Assembly: GCF_000703045.1 (NCBI RefSeq)
Contig: NZ_JNLJ01000001.1
Span: 310,001 to 374,000 of the forward strand
Length of the DNA stretch: 64,000 bases
Reading direction: 5' to 3'
Origin: Persephonella sp. IF05-L8
GTDB lineage: Bacteria > Aquificota > Aquificia > Aquificales > Hydrogenothermaceae
The stretch's first letter is position 1; each line of letters opens with the position of its first letter. A program made the position numbers and the translations under genes. The notes beneath the pieces are model-generated. The model was not told the origin of the DNA. It did not search any database and worked only from the letters and a program-made list of their open reading frames with translations. Positions 7,343 to 56,893 of this stretch are shown piece by piece.

Positions 7343-8296
7343 ATGAAAATGGTTAAAACGGAAAAAGGCTATTTTTATAAGAAAGTATGTTTCTATTGCG
7401 GAAAGGAATTTCTTGGAAATATAAAAAGGAAGTTCTGCAGTTTTGAGTGCAGCATTAAATATAGGAGTGAAAATATATCTTATAATTTGAAATGTAAAAA
7501 TTGCGGAAAAAATTTTAAAGGGCATAATCCACGTCAATTTTATTGTCACACGTGCAAGGAAAATTTAAAAACACGTATATGCCAAAAATGTGGAAAAGTT
7601 TTCAAAGTTAACAAAGTTTTTGAGAAACAAAAATTTTGCAGCAAAGCTTGTGAAAGAAAATACAATTTTAATGAACACATATTTAACAAAATAGAAACAT
7701 TTGAACAGACTTACTGGTTTGGATTTTTAATGGGAGATGGTCATATAAGATATGATATTAAACGAAATGTAAGAGAACTAATTTTGGGATTATCGGAAAA
7801 AGATTATCTCCATATTATAAAGTTTGTAAAGTTTTTAGGATTTCAAGACAAAAATATACCTATAAAATACGATAAAAAAAGGAAATCCTATATTCTTAGA
7901 GTTGCAAGTAAAACTTTGGTTGAAAATTTAAAAGAAAACGGTTTCCCTATTAAAGACAAGACAAATAGAGCTTATATTCCTGATTTTAAAAAAAGTTTTC
8001 TAAAACAAGGTGCAATTTTAGGTCTCTTTGATGCTGATGGTTCTGCCTTTGTATCAGGTAAGGTCTTTTACATAAGCTTGTGTGGAACAAAAAGTGTATG
8101 TGAAACTTTTTCTGATTTTATGGGAATAGAAGATAAATTCATAAAAAAAATAAAATCAACTAATATTTATGAAATTAAAGTAGGAAAACAAAAGAAAGAA
8201 CTAATTTATAAATTCTATAAGAAACTATATCAGAATGCTCCTATTTATTTAGAAAGAAAAAAAGCCGTTTTTGAAAAGTTTTTAAAGAGTAAATAA
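7343..8296 (+). CDS. Free-standing LAGLIDADG homing endonuclease with three zinc knuckles
   Basis: 317 residues, lodged between nrdB and nrdA with only 17 and 16 bases on either side. The N-terminus has three treble-clef-like metal sites: C16-C19-C32-C36, C51-C54-C68-C71 and C80-C83-C99-C103. Two LAGLIDADG motifs follow: W-F-G-F-L-M-G-D-G at 125-133 and L-G-L-F-D-A-D-G at 226-233. This is the two-motif monomeric nuclease layout. No intein splice motifs and no intron sequence flank it, and both nrd genes are complete. It is more AT-rich than nrdA, has only a weak ribosome site, and is probably mobile. The cleavage target is likely in nrdA or nrdB (inference). Confidence 0.87.
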   Translation: MKMVKTEKGYFYKKVCFYCGKEFLGNIKRKFCSFECSIKYRSENISYNLKCKNCGKNFKGHNPRQFYCHTCKENLKTRICQKCGKVFKVNKVFEKQKFCSKACERKYNFNEHIFNKIETFEQTYWFGFLMGDGHIRYDIKRNVRELILGLSEKDYLHIIKFVKFLGFQDKNIPIKYDKKRKSYILRVASKTLVENLKENGFPIKDKTNRAYIPDFKKSFLKQGAILGLFDADGSAFVSGKVFYISLCGTKSVCETFSDFMGIEDKFIKKIKSTNIYEIKVGKQKKELIYKFYKKLYQNAPIYLERKKAVFEKFLKSK

Positions 8297-43463: not shown

Positions 43464-43495
43464 TGGTAAACTTGATTAAAAATTTTGGTTAACGA
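43464..43495 (+). promoter_or_regulatory. Candidate BirA-like operator before bioB
   Basis: TGGTAAACT (43464-43472), 14 bases, GGTTAACGA (43487-43495). The arms match the BirA consensus TTGTAAACC and GGTTTACAA at 7 of 9 each, and the spacer is in the known 14-16 range. It lies directly before the bioB ribosome site. Two mismatches per arm in AT-rich DNA make this tentative. Confidence 0.3.
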
Positions 43496-43502
43496 GGTAA
43501 AG

Positions 43503-44537
43503 ATGGAGAATATAGAAAATTTCATAAATGGTCTTGCAGAAAGAGTTTTAAACGGTGAAAAGCTTACTAAAGAGGAAGGATTAAAAATATTAAACATTCC
43601 TGATGAATATATAGACCTTTTAATAAAAGAAGCCTCAAAGGTCAGGGAAGCTATTTTCCAAAATGAAGTAGAGTTCTGCTCCCTTATAAATGCAAAAAAT
43701 GGTGCCTGCACAGAAGACTGCTCGTTCTGTGCCCAGTCCTCAAAATATCCTACTCCAATAAATGCTTATCCTCTTGTGCCTAAAGAAGAATTAATAGAAG
43801 GTGCACAGAAAGCTGTATCAATCAAGGCAAACAGGTATTGTATCGTTACCAGTGGAAGAAGAGCCACAAAAGAAGAAGTTGAGAAAATAGCAGAGGCAGT
43901 TAGAGAAATAAGAAAAAATCTGCCTGTTAAGGTATGTGTATCAATTGGAAGTGTTGATGAAGAAGATTTGAAACTGCTTAAAGAAGCAGGGGTGGAAAGG
44001 GTAAATCATAATCTGGAAACCTCAGAAAATTTCTTTCCAAATATAGTAACCACACATCCATGGAAAGAAAGATATGAAACTATCAAAAAAATTCAGAAGG
44101 TTGGTCTATCAACCTGTACAGGTGGGATATTCGGAATAGGAGAAAGTGATGAAGATATAGTTGACCTTGCTATGACATATAGGGAGCTAAATGTAAACTC
44201 AATACCACTTAACTTTTTAATTCCTATTCCAGGAACACCTCTTGAAAATAATAGACAGCTGACCCCTGAAAAATGCATAAAAATAATAGCCCTTTTCAAA
44301 TTCTTTAACCCCCAATCTGAAATAAGACTGTGTGGCGGTAGAGAACAAAATCTTAGAGAATACCATGACAAAGCCATGGAAATTGCAAACTGCCTTATGG
44401 CAGGTGGCTATTTAACAAGGGCTGGAAGAGCTCCCGGCAAAGATGAAGAAATGGTAAAAAGATTAAACAGGAAACTTATAACAAAGGGAGATATTTTTGA
44501 GAAATATAAGCAAAAACCTGCTCAAGTGGAAGCATAG
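43503..44537 (+). CDS. bioB: Biotin synthase
   Basis: Radical-SAM enzyme that inserts sulfur into dethiobiotin. 344 residues with the cluster motif C-T-E-D-C-S-F-C (~residue 60), Y-C-I-V-T-S-G-R, and the C-terminal R-L-C-G-G-R-E. The ATG at 43503 follows ACGAGGTAAAG and is preferred to the in-frame TTG at 43485. The last 62 bases overlap the convergent glycosidase-like gene. Confidence 0.95.
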
Positions 44538-45342
44538 CCCTATACATAAAATACTGTTCTTTTGGTATTTTTAGAGGATTTAGTTTTTCAGAGATAAGAT
44601 TTATCAAATTTTGGCGTATCTGGGTTTTCTTATAAACAAGGCCATAAGCTATAGGGAAAATCTGGGAATATACATCAGGATAAATTCTGTCTGGATTTAT
44701 AGGATGGAGTACTTCGTTTGCAATTGCCCAGTAAAAATAACCGGTTGATACATCATAAAAATTACACCATATACTTTCATTAAAAGATATTGCATGTTCT
44801 TTATAATAGGAAAAATCAGGATGAGATATTTTTTCCAAAGCATAACATGCTGATAATAAACCACCATAAGCCTCAAGATTATTCATTAGATAATTCTGAG
44901 GACGCTGAGGGTCTGACATAGTAAGACCATTTTCACCTCTGAGATGCACTATTAAATAAGCCATGTGTAAATATTTATCAATATTTTTTTGGAAAATAGA
45001 GAAATCTCTTTTTTTTCTACAATATAAATTTGTCAATGTAAGAAATGTTCCTGCATATCCATCAGCAGAATCGTATATATTAAGGGGCTTTTCATTCCCG
45101 TCAAATGTTATTTCCAAATCATATATAGTTCCTGTAATTCCGTTGTAATCTCTGATATTAACTCTATCCAGATACCAGTAGATATATTTTTCAACTTCAC
45201 TGAGCTGAATTCTATCCTCAAGAAGTAAATATATTGCTGTAAGAGTGCTAATATATGGAATTACATAATTTTTTTCCTCTATATTAGAAAAATATTTCCA
45301 TATATTTAGTGATGGATGATGATTATCGTAATCTACATTCAT
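44476..45342 (-). CDS. Putative (alpha/alpha)6-barrel glycosidase-like protein, last gene of exopolysaccharide operon
   Basis: 288 residues, rich in aromatics and acidic residues, without signal peptide. Segments such as Y-I-Y-W-Y-L-D-R, D-S-A-D-G-Y-A-G-T-F, A-Y-G-G-L-L-S-A-C-Y-A and P-D-V-Y-S-Q-I-F-P look like helical-barrel glycoside hydrolases (GH8-like), but I cannot name the family. Bcs and Pel systems contain glycosidases in similar operons, which supports a polymer-trimming role. It overlaps the deacetylase gene by 20 bases and bioB by 62 bases in convergent orientation. The lack of an export signal is odd for a periplasmic hydrolase. Confidence 0.5.
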   Translation of the reverse strand: MNVDYDNHHPSLNIWKYFSNIEEKNYVIPYISTLTAIYLLLEDRIQLSEVEKYIYWYLDRVNIRDYNGITGTIYDLEITFDGNEKPLNIYDSADGYAGTFLTLTNLYCRKKRDFSIFQKNIDKYLHMAYLIVHLRGENGLTMSDPQRPQNYLMNNLEAYGGLLSACYALEKISHPDFSYYKEHAISFNESIWCNFYDVSTGYFYWAIANEVLHPINPDRIYPDVYSQIFPIAYGLVYKKTQIRQNLINLISEKLNPLKIPKEQYFMYRAMLPLEQVFAYISQKYLPLL

Positions 45343-47089
45343 AATGAAAATTTTTTGTGTTTTTGGTTATTATTATATAATAAAAGTGCCTATCCTGAAT
45401 GTCAGATAATTTCCCAGAGCATATCTTTTTAGGAATAGCAATTGGAATTCCTCTTAAGCCCTCAGGATTAGATACATCTACAACAAATTTTCTGCCTTTG
45501 ATTTCAAAGGAAAACTCGGTTTTTACAAATCTTTCTAAATAATTTTCAAAATATATCATCGGTTTTACTATTAGTTTCCCCTGCTTGTACTTTTTTTCTG
45601 CATAATCTATAAATCTCAAAATTGCTTTTGGATAACGGGGAATGTCATAGGGGTGTGAATATATAAGTCTTATTGTTTTTCTTTCTATGACAAAATCAAC
45701 CATTGCCTTAAGCCACTTTTCTACTTTTTTGGAAGAATAGCCTTTAACAGACATCTCGTAAAAAGAAGCAACATCTTCCAGCGGTGTAACAGGAAATGCC
45801 CAGACTTTATCTGAAACCATCTCCTTATTATAAAAAGTTCTGTTTGGAGCAGAACCAGAGTCACCAGTATAGTAATAGCATTTCATTCCAAGTTCTTCCA
45901 ATACCTTTGTCATTATGGGCTGAGGATGAACTCCATTGGGAGCAGAATATTCTTTGACTTTTTGATGGGTTAATTTTTCTAAACATTCATTATTCATTTC
46001 TATATATTTCTTAATTTCCTTATAACCAAACTCACCTGTAAGTACCTTTCTTGCAAACCAATTATGTGCCCATCCTCCATGTGAACCTGTTATTCCGTAT
46101 TTAATCAACATCAAAGCAAATCTTTTTCCTTTGCCACAGGCATCAAATCCTTTACCATCTCCAGGTTTTTGTAAAAAGGGACCAGCAGTTATGTGATTTG
46201 AGTATGTTATGGTTTTTCTTAGATAGCCCTTCTTAATCATCATAGGTACTGATTTCCAGTCTAAAGAGGAATCTATGTGCCAGTTGATAACAAGTCCACC
46301 TTTTGCATAAGGGACATTTAATAAATGGGGTATGTTAACTACTCTAAATAAATAAAATCTTATAAATGCCCGTAGGAGCAAATCATCACTTTCAGCTTTT
46401 AGATAACAAAGGGGAAGATTTACAAAAAAAGCTGAGCCTTCTCCATATCTTTTTAAGGAAGCTCCTATTCCCTGAAATTGAGAGTTATATACATAAGCAA
46501 TTTTTTCTATATTATCATCAATCTGCATAGTAAGAGCAACTGGATATTTTAATTTTCCATATTTATATCCGCTTACGGTGTTATCTATAGTTTTACCAGG
46601 GGGTATATCTATATCTCTTAGATAAAATTCATTTAACTTGAAATAGCCAAGGGTATATGCTTTGTCTTCTTCTTCAGGATACAAGCAGTAATCTACACCG
46701 ATTAGACTATCAAAAATTGGTCTATTTCTGTAGTGTCCATATGTATCTTTGACCCCTGCATCATAAATAACAAAAATATGTCCCCCACTCTTTACATACT
46801 CCTCACTCCAGTATTTGACATCAGCAGATAGTTGTTGTGCTACTCCGTCAGGAAAAATTATCACAGGAAATACTTTTTTAATCTTTTCAGGATAATAAGT
46901 CAGAAGAGAAGCAGCGCTCATTTTAGAAAAAAGAACACCTTCTTCCTGAAGAACACTTTCAAGGGCATTAATTGCATATTTTTTCTGGTCTATCTGTTGG
47001 GAGCTATATACGATAAGAACTTTAAACTCTTGTGCAAGTGCTATGGAAAAAAATAAAAGGATGCTTAATAATGCACCCAATTTATTCAT
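45323..47089 (-). CDS. Exported two-domain polysaccharide deacetylase-like protein
   Basis: 588 residues from ATG 47089, which overlaps the previous stop (ATGA) behind GGAAGGATAG. Signal peptide about 1-20 (ends A-L-A-Q-E). Residues ~22-250 look like a flavodoxin/GATase-type domain (V-L-I-V-Y-S-S, then G-G-H-I-F-V-I-Y-D-A-G). The second part has NodB-like features: N-W-H-I-D-S-S (motif 1 position), S-H-G-G-W-A-H (metal His), S-A-P-N-G-V-H-P and I-Y-S-H-P-Y-D-I. This fits periplasmic N-deacetylation of an amino-sugar polymer, as by PgaB or PelA. Family assignment is by pattern only. Confidence 0.65.
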   Translation of the reverse strand: MNKLGALLSILLFFSIALAQEFKVLIVYSSQQIDQKKYAINALESVLQEEGVLFSKMSAASLLTYYPEKIKKVFPVIIFPDGVAQQLSADVKYWSEEYVKSGGHIFVIYDAGVKDTYGHYRNRPIFDSLIGVDYCLYPEEEDKAYTLGYFKLNEFYLRDIDIPPGKTIDNTVSGYKYGKLKYPVALTMQIDDNIEKIAYVYNSQFQGIGASLKRYGEGSAFFVNLPLCYLKAESDDLLLRAFIRFYLFRVVNIPHLLNVPYAKGGLVINWHIDSSLDWKSVPMMIKKGYLRKTITYSNHITAGPFLQKPGDGKGFDACGKGKRFALMLIKYGITGSHGGWAHNWFARKVLTGEFGYKEIKKYIEMNNECLEKLTHQKVKEYSAPNGVHPQPIMTKVLEELGMKCYYYTGDSGSAPNRTFYNKEMVSDKVWAFPVTPLEDVASFYEMSVKGYSSKKVEKWLKAMVDFVIERKTIRLIYSHPYDIPRYPKAILRFIDYAEKKYKQGKLIVKPMIYFENYLERFVKTEFSFEIKGRKFVVDVSNPEGLRGIPIAIPKKICSGKLSDIQDRHFYYIIITKNTKNFHYECRLR

Positions 47090-47979
47090 TCTATCCTTCC
47101 ACACTTAATATTTGCCTGTACATATCCATAAATTTTAACATTTTTTCCTAATATTATCTTTTCTCCTATAACAGAAACTTTTCTATCTGGAGAACCAACG
47201 ACGACATTTTCCAGATATATATCCTTAAAAGAAAAGATAGTTCCCTCTACTATTACATTTTTAAGTTTTATATCTTCATCAGAAAATATATCTCCTTTTA
47301 TGTAAATAGGTTGAGATTTAATACCTTCAAATTCAACAGGATTTTCTCTAATAGTCTGTTCAATTATGAGAGAAAATTCTTTAGGTGTTTCATCTTTTAC
47401 TCCATAGGTAGTAATTGGATGTCCATACAATCGGGTAAATATATTTTTTGCTTCTATATGTAGATTTCCTTCAGAAGAACCTACAACTCCCAGAGAACAT
47501 CCTGAACCTACCTTCAGACTTTTGACAGCATCTATCCATCTAACAATTACCACATCATTGTGTATAGTACAATTTCCATCACAGGCAACAGCTCTCAAGA
47601 AGCAATCATCTTCTATTACTAAATCATAAAGGGCATATATCTCTTTTTTTATAACTGTTCCTTTTTTAATTGTAAAACTTCTATTGGTTATTACATAAAT
47701 ATGATTTGGGAAAAGATTAAATGTAAGATTATTGAATTTTCCATATTTAATGTATTCTTTCTTGGATAACTGAACTTCTATTCGTGAATGTTTGCTTATT
47801 TCTGAGGCAAGGGTTAAAGCTCTTGTTATTTTTTTCCTGAAAGAAACCGCAAAATATCTGGGATTTTTGGTATAGTTTAAGTCTATATTAAGACGTTCTT
47901 TGCCCAAAGCAAGCACATAACTTAAAACAAAAGGAAAAACAAACAGAAAGAAAATCATAAGAAATACAATTTCTATCAC
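47086..47979 (-). CDS. Membrane-anchored polymer-forming (bactofilin-like/beta-helix) protein
   Basis: 297 residues with one N-terminal membrane segment (about 3-24). A long series of short beta-strand repeats follows in the second half (for example I-Y-I-K-G-D-I, L-K-N-V-I-V-E-G-T-I, V-S-V-I-G-E-K-I), spaced like bactofilin or left-handed beta-helix folds. It could be a scaffold that positions the synthase. Start is GTG at 47979, overlapping the GT2 stop (GTGA). Other beta-solenoid functions are possible. Confidence 0.6.
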   Translation of the reverse strand: MIEIVFLMIFFLFVFPFVLSYVLALGKERLNIDLNYTKNPRYFAVSFRKKITRALTLASEISKHSRIEVQLSKKEYIKYGKFNNLTFNLFPNHIYVITNRSFTIKKGTVIKKEIYALYDLVIEDDCFLRAVACDGNCTIHNDVVIVRWIDAVKSLKVGSGCSLGVVGSSEGNLHIEAKNIFTRLYGHPITTYGVKDETPKEFSLIIEQTIRENPVEFEGIKSQPIYIKGDIFSDEDIKLKNVIVEGTIFSFKDIYLENVVVGSPDRKVSVIGEKIILGKNVKIYGYVQANIKCGRIE

Positions 47980-49256
47980 TCTATTACCTCTTCTTCTCTA
48001 AATCTTTCTGTTTTATCCCAGTGAACTTCTCTATTTCTTCTAACAAAATCCATAAACGCCTGTAAAAAACCTAAAGTTATATAAACCCCATTAAAGACAA
48101 AGTTAAACATCAAGAAGGGTAATAATCTGACCCTTTTTGTCAATCCATCTATCATTGTTCCTGTAGCAATTTCATAAAACGGAGCAAAGTTTCCAATACC
48201 AGAAAATAAGAGAAGAACCAGCATTACAAATGCAGGAGTAATTACACTTACATCTCCCACGAAAAATAAGATTAAGAGGTCTAACCAGCCAAGTAGCAGT
48301 AAAGCTGGAATTAAATAAACCATTAGAAGCAAAATACCATCAAATTTCTGGAAAAAAGTCAGATATTTTGATTTAAGAACTTTAAAAAAGTATTTAAACA
48401 TTACCTGATTGTGTCCCCGTGACCATCTTTTAACCTGTCTGGCTCTTACTTCCCAGTCTTCAGGGGCTTCTTCCCAGCACTCAGCTCTATTGGCATATAC
48501 AACCTTATAGCCAGATGTATACATCCTGTAAGTAAGTTCCGTGTCCTCTGCAAGAACATTTTCATCAAAACCCCCTGTTTCCAGAACAATGTCTTTTCTA
48601 AATCCTCCAACTGTGCCACCATACTGGGGTATTAAATTCAAATTGTATCTTGCCTGCTGGTCTACCTGATATCCTCCGCATCTTTCAAGGTCAAGTAGTT
48701 TTGTAAGAAGATTTTTATCTGCATTAATGGGAATAACTCTTCCCATAACTGCTCCAACAATAGGGTCTTTAAAATTAACTGCCAGTTCCTTAATTATTCC
48801 TTTTGGAGGTAAATAATCTGCATCAAATATGAGAACTATTTCCCCTTTTGCCACTTTTAAAGCATCATTTAATCCGGCTGGTTTTCCTCTTTTACCGCTA
48901 TACCTGTGCAATGGATGAATAAAATCATACTTCTGTGCAAACTCATCAACAATTTCCTTCGTTCTGTCTTCAGAATGGTCATTTATAGGAATAATCTCAT
49001 ATCTATCTTTGGGATAATCTGCTTCCACCAGAAGTTTTAATATATTGGGAGCGACCTTTTCTTCATTATGCATCGGAACAAGAACAGAAACTGATGGTAA
49101 TTCATCATCTATAATATCCCCATAAAATATCCTTTGTTTTCCCAGAAGTCGGTCATAAGCAAATATTAAATGTCTGATGGCATATAATGCACATAAACCA
49201 GCTACAGCAAAAATATAACCTTTAAGAAGTAGAATTATTATTCCACCCATCGCCAT
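47976..49256 (-). CDS. Membrane processive glycosyltransferase, family 2 (exopolysaccharide synthase)
   Basis: 426 residues, with an N-terminal membrane helix, a GT2 catalytic domain and three to four C-terminal spans. Motifs of processive synthases (PgaC/NodC/hyaluronan/cellulose type): P-M-H-N-E-E near the start, N-D-H-S-E-D, F-D-A-D-Y, L-A-E-D-T-E-L-T and Q-V-K-R-W (QxxRW). No PilZ domain. With wecB in the operon, the polymer probably contains GlcNAc- or ManNAc-type sugars (inference). The start overlaps the preceding membrane-protein gene by 19 bases. Confidence 0.9.
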   Translation of the reverse strand: MAMGGIIILLLKGYIFAVAGLCALYAIRHLIFAYDRLLGKQRIFYGDIIDDELPSVSVLVPMHNEEKVAPNILKLLVEADYPKDRYEIIPINDHSEDRTKEIVDEFAQKYDFIHPLHRYSGKRGKPAGLNDALKVAKGEIVLIFDADYLPPKGIIKELAVNFKDPIVGAVMGRVIPINADKNLLTKLLDLERCGGYQVDQQARYNLNLIPQYGGTVGGFRKDIVLETGGFDENVLAEDTELTYRMYTSGYKVVYANRAECWEEAPEDWEVRARQVKRWSRGHNQVMFKYFFKVLKSKYLTFFQKFDGILLLMVYLIPALLLLGWLDLLILFFVGDVSVITPAFVMLVLLLFSGIGNFAPFYEIATGTMIDGLTKRVRLLPFLMFNFVFNGVYITLGFLQAFMDFVRRNREVHWDKTERFREEEVIE

Positions 49257-50020
49257 TCTTCCACCTTTTTAAGTAAAGATGCTGTTACAAAGCTTATAAA
49301 AAACCCATAAAGCATCACAGCATATACATAATCAATAATTATTCCAAACCCTAAAAACAGGACAGGCATAAATATATATGAGTACTCTTTCAAGACTATA
49401 ATTATTAACAGATATCTTAAAAATCCCAGTATTATCACAGATAAACTTATTAATATGTAAACAGCTATTTTCAGAAAAAAATTGGCAGGAATTGGTGCAA
49501 TCAATAGACCAAATATAAACATTAAGACAGCCCAGTTTACTGCAGATGTACTGATAAATAAATAAGAGAAGCTGGATAAACTATAAGGAAAATACTGGGC
49601 AAAGAATATAAAGTACAACGCAGAGAGAATATTTATACATACCAGGACAAAAAGGGTCATAGATATGTTCTTTAAGTATCTACTTTTATACAGGATAATT
49701 GCAAGGATAAAAGAAACAACCAATGTCAAAATAGTAAAACTTTTGGTTGGATATTTGCCGTAAGTTTCTATATACGGAATATCAAAAATCAAAAAATCTT
49801 TATGATTAATTTCAAATACGGCAGATACATAAAAAGTATCTAAAAACTGTTTACAGAACTGTATACCTTTTTCCAGTATAAGAGGAAAAAATGAAAATAC
49901 AGCGATAAAAATCAGGAAAATAGCTATAAAACTTCCTATAAGTTCAAATCTATCAAGTTTAATTAATCTGTATGCCCTATGAGGAAGTATTTTCTCTTTA
50001 ATGTTATTTGTTTTTTTCAT
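49238..50020 (-). CDS. Multi-span membrane protein of the exopolysaccharide operon, function unknown
   Basis: 260 residues with about seven membrane segments (~27-50, 95-110, 117-140, 145-160, 162-180, 184-210, 220-245) and a periplasmic loop around 52-92. No recognised motif; it is neither a clear flippase nor an acyltransferase. It lies between the YaiO-type gene and the synthase and overlaps the latter, so it is likely a partner of polymer synthesis or export. Confidence 0.6.
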   Translation of the reverse strand: MKKTNNIKEKILPHRAYRLIKLDRFELIGSFIAIFLIFIAVFSFFPLILEKGIQFCKQFLDTFYVSAVFEINHKDFLIFDIPYIETYGKYPTKSFTILTLVVSFILAIILYKSRYLKNISMTLFVLVCINILSALYFIFFAQYFPYSLSSFSYLFISTSAVNWAVLMFIFGLLIAPIPANFFLKIAVYILISLSVIILGFLRYLLIIIVLKEYSYIFMPVLFLGFGIIIDYVYAVMLYGFFISFVTASLLKKVEEWRWVE

Positions 50021-50023
50021 GGC

Positions 50024-50806
50024 TTAAAAATCTATAAAAACTCCCCCTGATATTCTGTATTTGTTATAAGAATTCTGGAGCCTCATATATTCCAGCTCAC
50101 CTATCAAACCAAAAGTATTATTTAGCCAGTGTCTATGTCCTATACCAACAATGGTAGAATTCTGCCTTACTTCTTCAGGATTACTGAGATATGTTGCCAG
50201 GTAGGCTTGTTTTCCCCAGGATACAGTAAGATATGTCCACTGGTCTTTTTCTGCCCCATAATCAATGCTAACCAGATATGAACTGGAATATAAATTTCCA
50301 GGTTTGCTTATATTATAGAAATACCTTACTGTTCCAACAAACTTTCTGTAATAAATACTACTACCTACTGAAAAAATAATATTCTCATGAACATCCCAGT
50401 ATTTTATGTATGTTCCTGCAGCTGTTAATACATATTGCTGCTGTGGTCCCATCTTAAAGTTAAATTCATGGTCAAGTCTATACTTGGGCAGATACACTGA
50501 ATTTGTCCCAAAAGATGCTGAAGAGTATGTATAAAGCCAATTTGTCCAGTCTTTGTAAGTGCCTAAAACCCCTAAAGCAGCACTACCTTCTATCTTCCTA
50601 TCTATAACACTACCACCTACAAATGGTGTCCAGTTTCCGTCCTCCTTTCCATAAAACATCATATCTACACTATTCCACTCTCCATATTCGGAATATGGGT
50701 CAAGTCTTTCGTAGTTATACTTAACTTCAAATCTTTCTGGAGAAAGAGCATATGAATTAAATGCCATAGTACAGATTAAAGCAGCTACAATATTTACCTT
50801 TTTCAT
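50024..50806 (-). CDS. YaiO-family outer membrane beta-barrel protein
   Basis: 260 residues with a signal peptide (about 1-20, N-S-Y-A-L) and alternating amphipathic strands ending in G-G-V-F-I-D-F, the C-terminal Phe expected for a barrel. The pattern G-x-x-I-Y-Y-R-K, Y-x-Y-N-x-S-K-P-G and V-G-I-G-H-R-H-W-L-N resembles YaiO. E. coli yaiO stands beside the GT2 gene yaiP; a role as the outer-membrane exit pore is inferred. Start overlaps the wecB stop (ATGA). Confidence 0.78.
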   Translation of the reverse strand: MKKVNIVAALICTMAFNSYALSPERFEVKYNYERLDPYSEYGEWNSVDMMFYGKEDGNWTPFVGGSVIDRKIEGSAALGVLGTYKDWTNWLYTYSSASFGTNSVYLPKYRLDHEFNFKMGPQQQYVLTAAGTYIKYWDVHENIIFSVGSSIYYRKFVGTVRYFYNISKPGNLYSSSYLVSIDYGAEKDQWTYLTVSWGKQAYLATYLSNPEEVRQNSTIVGIGHRHWLNNTFGLIGELEYMRLQNSYNKYRISGGVFIDF

Positions 50807-52008
50807 AATATCTCTATACCCTCCTTTATATGCTCTAAGTTCATCTTTTCTGTTGATGGATACTGTTTTATAAACCTTTGAACTTCATCATTTTCAAGTA
50901 ATTTACGTATTCTGATAGATGCTGTCCCATCCCCAAAAAGATTTCTTCCTCTGTTGGAAACTTTTTCATAAAATTCCTTATCTTCAACAAATTTTTTAAA
51001 ATAGTATTCAATTTTATCCCTATTACTATCCACTAAAAATCCAGCTTTTGCGTCTATTACAACAGACCTCTCGGTTACAGCTCTTAAAACCAATACCGGA
51101 ATTCCTAAACTGGCGCTTTCTTCTTGCAATCCCCCACTATCTGTAATAACTAAAAAAGTACGACTTAGTAAATAAATCATCGTAGAATACGAAATTGGCT
51201 TCGTTATATATATATTATCGGGTTTAATTTTCATATAATTAGAAATTATACTTTTTACTTCTGGATTGGGATGTGTTGACCAGATGAATATAAAATCAGG
51301 ATACTTTTGTGCCAGATGTTTAATACTCTGACATATTTTAACAAGGGGCTCTCCAATATTTTCCCTTCTGTGAGAAGTAATAAGAATAAGTTTTTTATTT
51401 TTCAAAATATCTGGAGTAATTCCATATTCGCTGAGCTCTTTGAAAACCTGCTTTTCATCTAAGAGTGAACTACCCAGTTTCAGTGCATCAACTACTGTAT
51501 TCCCAACAAGAAAAATCCTGTCTGGTCTTATATTTTCCTTAAGTAGATTTTCTTTATCTACTTTTGTTGGAGGAAAATGTAAATCAGCCAGTCTTCCTAC
51601 CATCTCCCTCATTAATTCTTCTGGAAAGGGTGCAAATTTACTAAAACTTCTCAGGCCTGCTTCCACATGGGCAACAGGTTTTTTTTGAAGAAATCCCACA
51701 AAAGCCGCTGTAAAGGTTGTCATAGTATCTCCCTGAACGATAATAAGGTCAGGAGAGATTTCTGAATAAACCCTATCCAGATTTTCAATTAACATAGAAG
51801 ATAGCTGTGAAAGAGTTCTATCCTTTGACACAAAAGCTCTTAAATCATAATCAACATCAATATGAAAAAAATCTATTATCTGTTGAACCAGGTTATGATG
51901 TTGACCTGAATTTATGACTATAGTTTCAAACCTATTTTGTAGCTGTTTTATAACCGGGGCTAATTTAATAGCTTCAGGTCTTGTTCCAAAAACAACAGCT
52001 ATTTTCAT
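50803..52008 (-). CDS. wecB: UDP-N-acetylglucosamine 2-epimerase (non-hydrolysing)
   Basis: Interconverts UDP-GlcNAc and UDP-ManNAc. 401 residues with V-F-G-T-R-P-E-A-I-K, N-S-G-Q-H, V-Q-G-D-T, H-V-E-A-G-L-R-S, S-H-R-R-E-N and D-S-G-G-L-Q-E-E. The ATG at 52008 follows GAGAGGGGGAG; the frame's earlier ATG (52041) has no such site. First gene of the seven-gene exopolysaccharide operon. No UDP-ManNAc dehydrogenase is nearby, so ManNAc itself may be the monomer (inference). Confidence 0.95.
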   Translation of the reverse strand: MKIAVVFGTRPEAIKLAPVIKQLQNRFETIVINSGQHHNLVQQIIDFFHIDVDYDLRAFVSKDRTLSQLSSMLIENLDRVYSEISPDLIIVQGDTMTTFTAAFVGFLQKKPVAHVEAGLRSFSKFAPFPEELMREMVGRLADLHFPPTKVDKENLLKENIRPDRIFLVGNTVVDALKLGSSLLDEKQVFKELSEYGITPDILKNKKLILITSHRRENIGEPLVKICQSIKHLAQKYPDFIFIWSTHPNPEVKSIISNYMKIKPDNIYITKPISYSTMIYLLSRTFLVITDSGGLQEESASLGIPVLVLRAVTERSVVIDAKAGFLVDSNRDKIEYYFKKFVEDKEFYEKVSNRGRNLFGDGTASIRIRKLLENDEVQRFIKQYPSTEKMNLEHIKEGIEIL

Positions 52009-52115
52009 CTCTCCCCCTCTCTTATTAGTAAGTATATACAAACCTAAATATTAATACTCTTTTTTCCTCTACCATCCAAAACCTATTCTAAATTATTAGT
52101 TAGATTTGCAAAGTT

Positions 52116-54973: not shown

Positions 54974-56893
54974 TTATCTTTTTACCTTTCTGCGAACGGC
55001 TACGATGAATTGGTAGATTAGAAAACCTGATGCTACTGTATATATGAAAAGAAATAAAATTATCCATAAATTACTTTCATTAAATTCTCCTTTTATGGTT
55101 TTTGTAATTTCTGCTATGTTTTTAACTGACAATAAAAATGGAGATAATATGAGTTCCAAAATTTTGAAATAAAGTTTTACTGCTTCCCACATTGCAGTTA
55201 AAAATCCTTTTTCATAAGACCAGTATGTTTTTTCAGCACAGACTTTAAATTCCTCAAACATACAGTAATAGTAATTTCTTTGGAATATAAACGAAGTTAT
55301 AAAAGAAATTGTAAATAACCACATTAAAGGTTTAGTCCAGCTTTGACCGAAGTTTGAAACCCATTTGTGAATTGTAAAAACAAGTCTTTCTTGCCAATTA
55401 TCTTTTGTCCATCCTTGTTGCTCAAAATATTTTTCATAGGCTTTCATTTCTAATGCATAAAATTTGTTAGCAGTTATATGGTCTTCTTGTTTATCTAATG
55501 CAAGTTTTAATTGTCTGTAAACATCACGAAGTTCTATTATTTTTTCTTCTTTTAAAGTTTCTAATTTTTTATGGCTAAGGTATGCCTCAACTCTCAATCT
55601 TAAGCTTCTATCAATTAAATTTTCCTTTGTAAGTTCATTATTAGTAATTTTCTCTTTTAATTCATCTATTTTAGTTTCTACTTCATCATCTGATGATATA
55701 TATGGTCTTATTAAATTTTTTAAAGGAATCCATTTCTCTTCTATATTTATTCTTTCTTCTGAAACGTCTCCCCAATGAATATTATTTAAAATACAATTAT
55801 CAAAAGAAACATTTCTGAATACTATATCTTTTGCTTCTGTTAAGTCTAAATTATTAAAGTCAAAATTTTTTAAAGAGGTATTTGTAATTTTTAATAGATT
55901 TTTTACTTTTACCCCGTAAAATCGTATAGTTTCTGAATAGTTATAAATCGAATTTATAATTAAATTTTGAATTTCAACCTTATTTTCTTTATTGTCGTAA
56001 TATCCATAAACTAAAAATTTAGCTTCTTTATCAAACTCAGATTCACTTAAATCAAAATTATCATAAAACTTACAACCGTAGATTTTTACACTATCTTTAA
56101 ATTTACATCCTATAAAATCCGCTTTTTTATAAAATAAAGTCTCATAGCATAAAAAGTAAGGTATATAACTATAAGATATATTGAAATCTCCAAAAAACTT
56201 GCACTCACTAAAGTCTACTCTGTTCTTAAAAATTACTCTCAACAAATGAAATTTATCAAGAAACTTAGAATGCCAAAAATCAACAGGACTTTCAAACTTT
56301 AAACTTTCACCATGATACCAGAAATTTAAGTTTTTATCAGCTTTTAAAATACTTATTTTTTCTTCTTCTTTGTTTATTGTTTGAATTATACTTTTATCAA
56401 GCTTTCCAAGATAAACATCATAAAAATATTCTTCAAAGCAAGGAAATACGAACCCCCTAAAATCATAAAAAAGTTCATCTTCTTTTAATTTAAAAAAATA
56501 TCTTATACAAAACTTTTTATTTTTGTCTTTTTCATTTTCTTTTTCTTCAAACTCTTTTTGAGTTTCTTCCGGTAGTAGCTGTTTTAATTGTTCCCATTTT
56601 TCTTCCTCTGTCCCTTCAAAATTATCCCACTTTTTTTTATAATCCACCGCAAATCTGTAAGCCCTTATTCTTCCCCAAAATTCATTAACTAAATTCCCAT
56701 TCCACTTTTCATTATAATTTCCCATCCAGATTTCGTTTTCTTTTTTGCAGTGGAAAATGCAGGTTCCATAAACTACCGTATCCTTATTTATTTCTTTCGG
56801 TACAAAAACAACAACAGGTTCTATAACGTTTCTTCCTATCTCTTTACAAATTCTACATTCATGATTTTCTAAATAAATGACTGAATAACTCAA
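54974..56893 (-). CDS. Large AT-rich membrane protein with pentapeptide-like repeats
   Basis: 639 residues. N-terminal Cys set C13-x2-C16 and C45-x3-C49 may bind a metal. The middle (~220-385) has degenerate pentapeptide-type coils such as V-D-F-S-E-C-K-F, A-D-F-I-G-C-K-F and F-D-L-S-E-S-E-F. A charged helix (D-V-Y-R-Q-L-K-L-A-L ... A-N-K-F-Y-A-L-E-M) and three hydrophobic segments (~525-545, 575-598 and 615-634) end the protein, a layout seen in pentapeptide proteins with channel-like tails. Base composition is richer in A+T than its neighbours, hinting at transfer. No function is assigned. Confidence 0.65.
   Translation of the reverse strand: MSYSVIYLENHECRICKEIGRNVIEPVVVFVPKEINKDTVVYGTCIFHCKKENEIWMGNYNEKWNGNLVNEFWGRIRAYRFAVDYKKKWDNFEGTEEEKWEQLKQLLPEETQKEFEEKENEKDKNKKFCIRYFFKLKEDELFYDFRGFVFPCFEEYFYDVYLGKLDKSIIQTINKEEEKISILKADKNLNFWYHGESLKFESPVDFWHSKFLDKFHLLRVIFKNRVDFSECKFFGDFNISYSYIPYFLCYETLFYKKADFIGCKFKDSVKIYGCKFYDNFDLSESEFDKEAKFLVYGYYDNKENKVEIQNLIINSIYNYSETIRFYGVKVKNLLKITNTSLKNFDFNNLDLTEAKDIVFRNVSFDNCILNNIHWGDVSEERINIEEKWIPLKNLIRPYISSDDEVETKIDELKEKITNNELTKENLIDRSLRLRVEAYLSHKKLETLKEEKIIELRDVYRQLKLALDKQEDHITANKFYALEMKAYEKYFEQQGWTKDNWQERLVFTIHKWVSNFGQSWTKPLMWLFTISFITSFIFQRNYYYCMFEEFKVCAEKTYWSYEKGFLTAMWEAVKLYFKILELILSPFLLSVKNIAEITKTIKGEFNESNLWIILFLFIYTVASGFLIYQFIVAVRRKVKR

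Follow-up and report, generated by a model that had tools for sequence, protein, structure and literature searches.

The locus at positions 44476-52008 on the minus strand of a 64,000-nucleotide (nt) stretch of Persephonella sp. IF05-L8 (contig NZ_JNLJ01000001.1; hereafter the window) raises the question of whether its seven genes, which combine a polysaccharide synthase with a deacetylase-like protein, a glycosidase-like protein and an outer-membrane barrel, belong to a known exopolysaccharide system or constitute one of their own. We consider it rather probable that they encode a synthase-dependent secretion machine for a partly deacetylated N-acetylhexosamine (HexNAc) polymer, probably one containing N-acetylmannosamine (ManNAc), which would leave the cell through a YaiO barrel devoid of TPR and would involve a cytoplasmic, bactofilin-like partner.

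The seven open reading frames (ORFs) lie head to tail in the order wecB, yaiO, tm7, gt2, solenoid, deac and gh, with overlaps of 4 nt (wecB/yaiO and gt2/solenoid), 19 nt (tm7/gt2 and solenoid/deac) and 20 nt (deac/gh) and a 3-nt gap at yaiO/tm7, in agreement with the tightly packed leftward series described in a first-pass annotation of the window. Judged from the sequence, they form one transcription unit. The start codon of wecB is the ATG at 52008, preceded by a purine-rich ribosome-binding site (GGGGGAG); 52041 marks only the first in-frame TTG. The 107-nt gap between wecB and the next upstream gene holds a possible sigma-70-like promoter (52085-52112, minus strand; TTTGCA-16-TAGAAT, 9 of 12 matches), which is a weak candidate because such matches are no commoner than in shuffled sequence. 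Searches of Pfam and NCBIfam with all seven proteins gave secure families for WecB, YaiO and the family 2 glycosyltransferase (GT2), and no assignment at cut-off for the other four window proteins. The Pfam scan matched no TPR, PilZ or MshEN domain in any of the seven, so that the lack of a TPR scaffold and of PilZ noted earlier was confirmed, and found no domain binding cyclic di-GMP (c-di-GMP). Eighteen GGDEF and three PilZ domains are encoded elsewhere in the genome, and a GGDEF-family gene adjoins two Firestonebacteria cassettes (identified in one by a scan and in the other because the gene clusters with the scanned one); c-di-GMP might control the operon, though nothing here supports this.

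Co-conservation in Aquificota and in other phyla, which the first-pass annotation had named as a test, was borne out by a survey of Aquificota and a GTDB-wide scan. The deac gene was detected in 14 of 136 Aquificota genomes; one match is weak (E 3e-4) and comes without the cassette, which leaves 13 carriers. Where contigs permit, these have all seven genes, ordered alike in the two families and set in differing genomic surroundings. Scanning 84,980 GTDB species yielded 35 loci including those of Aquificota, a lower bound since the scan used two peptide patterns from deac. The 26 loci outside Aquificota are spread over about 11 lineages: Zixibacteria, Acidobacteriota, Nitrospirota, Aminicenantes, Firestonebacteria, Campylobacterota (Sulfurovum), Cloacimonadota, Negativicutes (Sporomusa, Phascolarctobacterium, Acidaminococcales), Dictyoglomus, Eremiobacterota and unassigned proteobacteria; many of these carriers are metagenome bins, and a lone short contig (e.g. 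that of Dictyoglomus) could be misbinned. Both gt2 and solenoid lie beside deac in 24 of the 26, the remaining two being on short contigs. The core order tm7-gt2-solenoid-deac is near-invariant, gh comes next in most loci (Sulfurovum has none), and yaiO stands at one end of the cassette. The arrangement is not a chance one, since it is found again in other Aquificota and in other phyla. All carrier lineages, including Negativicutes, are regarded as diderm, which fits an outer-membrane exporter, since this requires an outer membrane.

Carriers are scattered (in the Sporomusa order, 2 of 28 genomes), and members of different phyla intermingle in the GT2 tree; the cassette has therefore probably moved horizontally as a unit. 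The pairwise distances of six cassette proteins correlate with one another (r 0.55-0.86, Mantel p 0.001). Histidine kinases, P-type ATPases and GGDEF proteins encoded in the neighborhood outside the cassette were rejected as parts of it, as they are not conserved. One Thermocrinis bin (G056) holds the cassette in four or five copies, located on short contigs (L033, L037, L038, L084, L085), reflecting either true multiplication or a mixture of strains.

At the center of the cassette, gt2 (47976-49256, minus strand) encodes a processive membrane GT2 polysaccharide synthase of 426 amino acids (PF13641, 5e-27; PF00535). Its D145xD147, ED238 and Q274xxRW motifs, which are those of processive synthases, are invariant in 22 members, and the cassette GT2s form a single clade (support 93/96). 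Compared with four E. coli synthases, the protein is closest to PgaC (126 bits), followed by YaiP (66), BcsA (63) and NfrB (21), but it scores 126.9 bits against the PgaC/IcaA model TIGR03937 (cut-off 422.3) and 68.9 bits against the CelA/BcsA models, far below their cut-off of 699. The adjacent tm7 (49238-50020, minus strand) encodes a polytopic inner-membrane protein that belongs to no known family and is a candidate partner of the synthase; apart from one stray Pfam match, its 19 members had no family in Pfam or NCBIfam. Its earlier description as a seven-span membrane protein stands as to its polytopic nature but not as to the number, which is approximate: a simple hydropathy scan gives six clear hydrophobic peaks. 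A weak BLAST match to the transmembrane (TM) region of PgaC (E 6e-4) was put down to hydrophobic composition and discarded. In every one of the 13 loci measured, tm7 shares 13-25 nt of coding sequence with gt2, which suggests translational coupling and a complex of fixed ratio.

The first gene, wecB (50803-52008, minus strand), encodes a non-hydrolysing UDP-N-acetylglucosamine (UDP-GlcNAc) 2-epimerase (TIGR00236, 365.5 bits; cut-off 210), which would supply UDP-ManNAc and is the sole match to this enzyme in the genome. Matches over the cut-off occur in 12 of the 13 cassette-bearing Aquificota genomes against 13 of the 123 others, a contrast inflated by the kinship of the genomes. Within the genus, all six carriers have wecB and none of eight non-carriers has it over the cut-off (two have fragments); one Persephonella encodes it outside the operon, elsewhere in the genome. 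Outside Aquificota, roughly half of the loci with good coverage have wecB next to the cassette. The single genomic copy and the linkage to the cassette across Aquificota strengthen the ManNAc side of the earlier suggestion, which read the epimerase as pointing to a ManNAc or a GlcNAc polymer. Similar reasoning was put forward for the Nfr system, in which NfrB homologs have a neighboring wecB unless the genome has one elsewhere (PMC8669469).

The two genes at the downstream end encode candidate polymer-modifying enzymes. The exported product of deac (45323-47104, minus strand) combines a GATase1/ThuA-like N-terminal domain with a deacetylase domain of the CE4/NodB fold. In its AlphaFold model (predicted local distance difference test, pLDDT, 84.6), the Rossmann part of the N-terminal domain resembles GATase1, ThuA and GH42 domains, and Foldseek matched the model to the polysaccharide deacetylases 3rxz and HP0310, ArnD, ThuA and GH42 (E about 1e-8), with a NodB fold evident against 3rxz (E 2e-8, TMt 0.57). 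PF01522 was matched in 11 of 25 family members, and the candidate positions for the Asp-His-His metal site and catalytic motifs of CE4 enzymes (H276xD278, H342, H347, P389xG391 and H484) are conserved in at least 23 of the 25. Firestonebacteria cassettes (L051, L052, L053, L055) have two deacetylase-like genes in tandem. The product of gh (44476-45342, minus strand) is a glycosidase-like protein whose AlphaFold model (pLDDT 86.1) supports an (alpha/alpha)6-toroid fold class, with Foldseek matches to 2-epimerases and to GH88, GH76, GH78 and GH116 enzymes (E about 1e-4 to 1e-3, template modelling score 0.5-0.6); D65, D91, D94 and E157 are conserved, and glycosidase activity is putative. For both proteins, then, the predicted folds are those expected from the first-pass assignments. 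PDB sequence searches with both proteins and their profiles returned nothing meaningful, and a viral fold library gave only generic deacetylase and tail-protein matches, which added nothing. Orthologs of gh in other phyla have signal peptides, several with lipobox-like motifs. In the window, a bioB-like gene on the plus strand (43485-44537) convergently overlaps the 3′ end of gh by 62 nt (44476-44537).

Between the synthase and the deacetylase lies solenoid (47086-47979, minus strand), encoding an N-terminal TM helix (residues 1-19) and a bactofilin-related beta-solenoid, a candidate cytoplasmic scaffold. Like bactofilins, the family is predicted to form a beta-solenoid, and 16 of its 24 members match PF04519 (best E 8e-9); it differs from them by the TM helix, by additional sequence in the middle and by an RW motif that is invariant. 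Kinship to hexapeptide acyltransferases was rejected, the profile match being weak and poorer than that to bactofilin. An 813-residue relative in Cloacimonadota (L064:2074-4515) carries an N-terminal SPOR domain ahead of the TM helix. This placement, together with a positively charged flank after the helix, would put the solenoid in the cytoplasm.

The proposed exit is encoded by yaiO (50024-50806, minus strand), which, as first read, is a true member of the YaiO family of outer-membrane beta-barrels, here lacking TPR (PF19413, 85.2 bits, E 6.8e-24; TIGR04390, 137.8 bits, cut-off 32, E 5.5e-40). Its profile matches E. coli YaiO (E 9e-11, hhalign 93%) but neither PgaA nor NfrA (hhalign probability 0.2% for the latter), and a PDB sequence search found no solved relative. 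E. coli YaiO also sits in a GT2 cluster, and in an Aquificaceae genome (L081:6631-10748) a YaiO barrel is fused to SPOR and TPR domains two genes from a different GT2, beside a HEAT-repeat protein. This arrangement is of the PgaA/BcsC type and apparently represents a second kind of YaiO-based polysaccharide system. Given the E. coli cluster and this fusion, YaiO is a plausible export barrel even without TPR. A similar GT2 lies near YaiO in another genus (g12; L080).

From these assignments we infer how the machine would work. WecB would convert UDP-GlcNAc to UDP-ManNAc, and the inner-membrane GT2, probably complexed with Tm7, would polymerise the sugar and push the chain into the periplasm, where the exported CE4-type protein would remove some of the N-acetyl groups and the toroid protein would trim chains before the polymer exits through YaiO. 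The membrane-anchored solenoid, presumably on the cytoplasmic side, may position or cluster the synthase, and in one relative SPOR would tie it to the cell wall. Several observations weigh against this scheme. In about ten cassettes wecB is not a neighbor; those genomes that were checked encode it elsewhere, but wecB is a common gene. The first deacetylase motif is HxD where CE4 enzymes have DD, and the Persephonella glycosidase-like protein has no recognisable signal peptide. The window's own solenoid falls below the PF04519 threshold, so the label bactofilin-like is supported at the level of the family. Lastly, YaiO has about 235 residues and an estimated 12 strands, smaller than the 16-18-strand porins of the Pga, Bcs and alginate systems. 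The 12-strand sugar porins KdgM and NanC indicate that a barrel of such size can pass acidic oligosaccharides; exit of a polymer through one as small as YaiO is an unproven candidate route. We hold more tentatively a broader proposal, in which the carriers share a widespread undescribed secretion class that moves partly de-N-acetylated poly-ManNAc through TPR-less YaiO, with a bactofilin-like scaffold and a new polytopic partner placing and driving the synthase.

The alternative closest to established biology is a variant Pga-type system making poly-GlcNAc, resembling poly-N-acetylglucosamine (PNAG), with wecB serving another pathway or a minor sugar. Among the E. coli synthases compared, PgaC is indeed the nearest to this GT2, and a deacetylase, a glycosidase and a barrel follow the Pga logic. 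Yet the synthase falls well under the PgaC/IcaA cut-off, the operon has neither PgaA nor PgaD, two separate proteins unlike the PgaB fusion stand in its place, and the genome's only wecB lies inside the operon, and we regard this explanation as unlikely.

The polymer might instead stay in the envelope, as a glycan of the periplasm or bound to the wall; the bactofilin-like and SPOR parts would organise it, and YaiO would be an anchor or a modifying enzyme rather than a pore. Such parts do point to the cell wall, and a small barrel in an operon without a TPR scaffold would suit this arrangement; however, the YaiO-TPR fusion beside a GT2 in a related genome resembles a secretion porin, and E. coli YaiO too accompanies a GT2, which makes an envelope glycan improbable in our view. 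Membership of the Nfr (N4 glycan receptor) system would share the logic of a UDP-ManNAc-forming epimerase, a GT2 and an outer-membrane barrel, but defining features of Nfr that were tested fail: the operon lacks MshEN, TPR and YbcH, its GT2 has little similarity to NfrB and its barrel is unlike NfrA. We give this possibility very little credence. The preferred reading remains secretion through YaiO of a HexNAc polymer, probably containing ManNAc.

Two further features of the window lie outside the operon. A 317-residue ORF at 7343-8296, between ribonucleotide reductase-like genes, has zinc-finger-like cysteines and appears homing endonuclease-like by eye, with no Pfam match; a 639-residue membrane protein at 54974-56893 contains pentapeptide repeats (PF13576, E 1.5e-8).

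If the broader proposal is correct, no polysaccharide synthase known to us before this one has an operon that also encodes a dedicated partner of bactofilin type. More generally, the cassette would link bactofilin-type solenoids to polysaccharide synthesis. Found in about a dozen diderm lineages, it would join the small number of synthase-dependent systems already characterised (cellulose, PNAG, alginate, Pel and Nfr), give the uncharacterised YaiO family, also present in E. coli, a testable role, and offer an entry point to the biofilm matrix of vent and hot-spring Aquificota and of gut Negativicutes. In the papers and family libraries searched (subscription literature lay outside the search) the cassette has no description, in keeping with its earlier nomination as a candidate undescribed system.

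Comparison with known systems places the cassette near several of them and within none. With Pga (pgaABCD) it shares a processive GT2, a periplasmic CE4-type deacetylase, a glycosidase and an outer-membrane barrel, but it lacks the TPR-porin PgaA; in place of the PgaB deacetylase-hydrolase fusion it has separate proteins without significant similarity to PgaB, one carrying a GATase-like domain and the other a toroid fold, and it adds wecB, tm7 and the bactofilin-like protein. The Nfr system (NfrB-NfrA-YbcH with WecB) likewise links a UDP-GlcNAc 2-epimerase to a processive GT2 and an outer-membrane barrel, and in E. coli NfrB, NfrA and WecB make a putative ManNAc polymer (PMC8669469, PMC8669472); here the barrel is YaiO and not the TPR-barrel NfrA, and the operon has a deacetylase and a glycosidase. 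The uncharacterised E. coli yaiP-yaiX-yaiO cluster (with yaiS) also has a YaiO barrel beside a GT2, along with YaiX, predicted to be an acyltransferase, and YaiS, a putative deacetylase. It differs in that YaiS has no similarity to the deacetylase of the cassette, the GT2 is distant, YaiX is annotated as an acyltransferase and the K-12 region has no wecB, tm7 or gh. Cellulose (Bcs) systems share a GT2 synthase and a toroid-fold glycosidase, BcsZ being an (alpha/alpha)6 enzyme of family GH8, but the operon has no PilZ, BcsB, BcsC or GH8 match. On the defining features tested in sequence, membership of Pga, Nfr and Bcs is excluded. By membership, then, the seven genes form a distinct cassette whose GT2s make a clade of their own; by anatomy, with a synthase, deacetylase, glycosidase and barrel encoded together as first proposed, their resemblance to synthase-dependent secretion is well supported, the corresponding chemistry and export route being putative.
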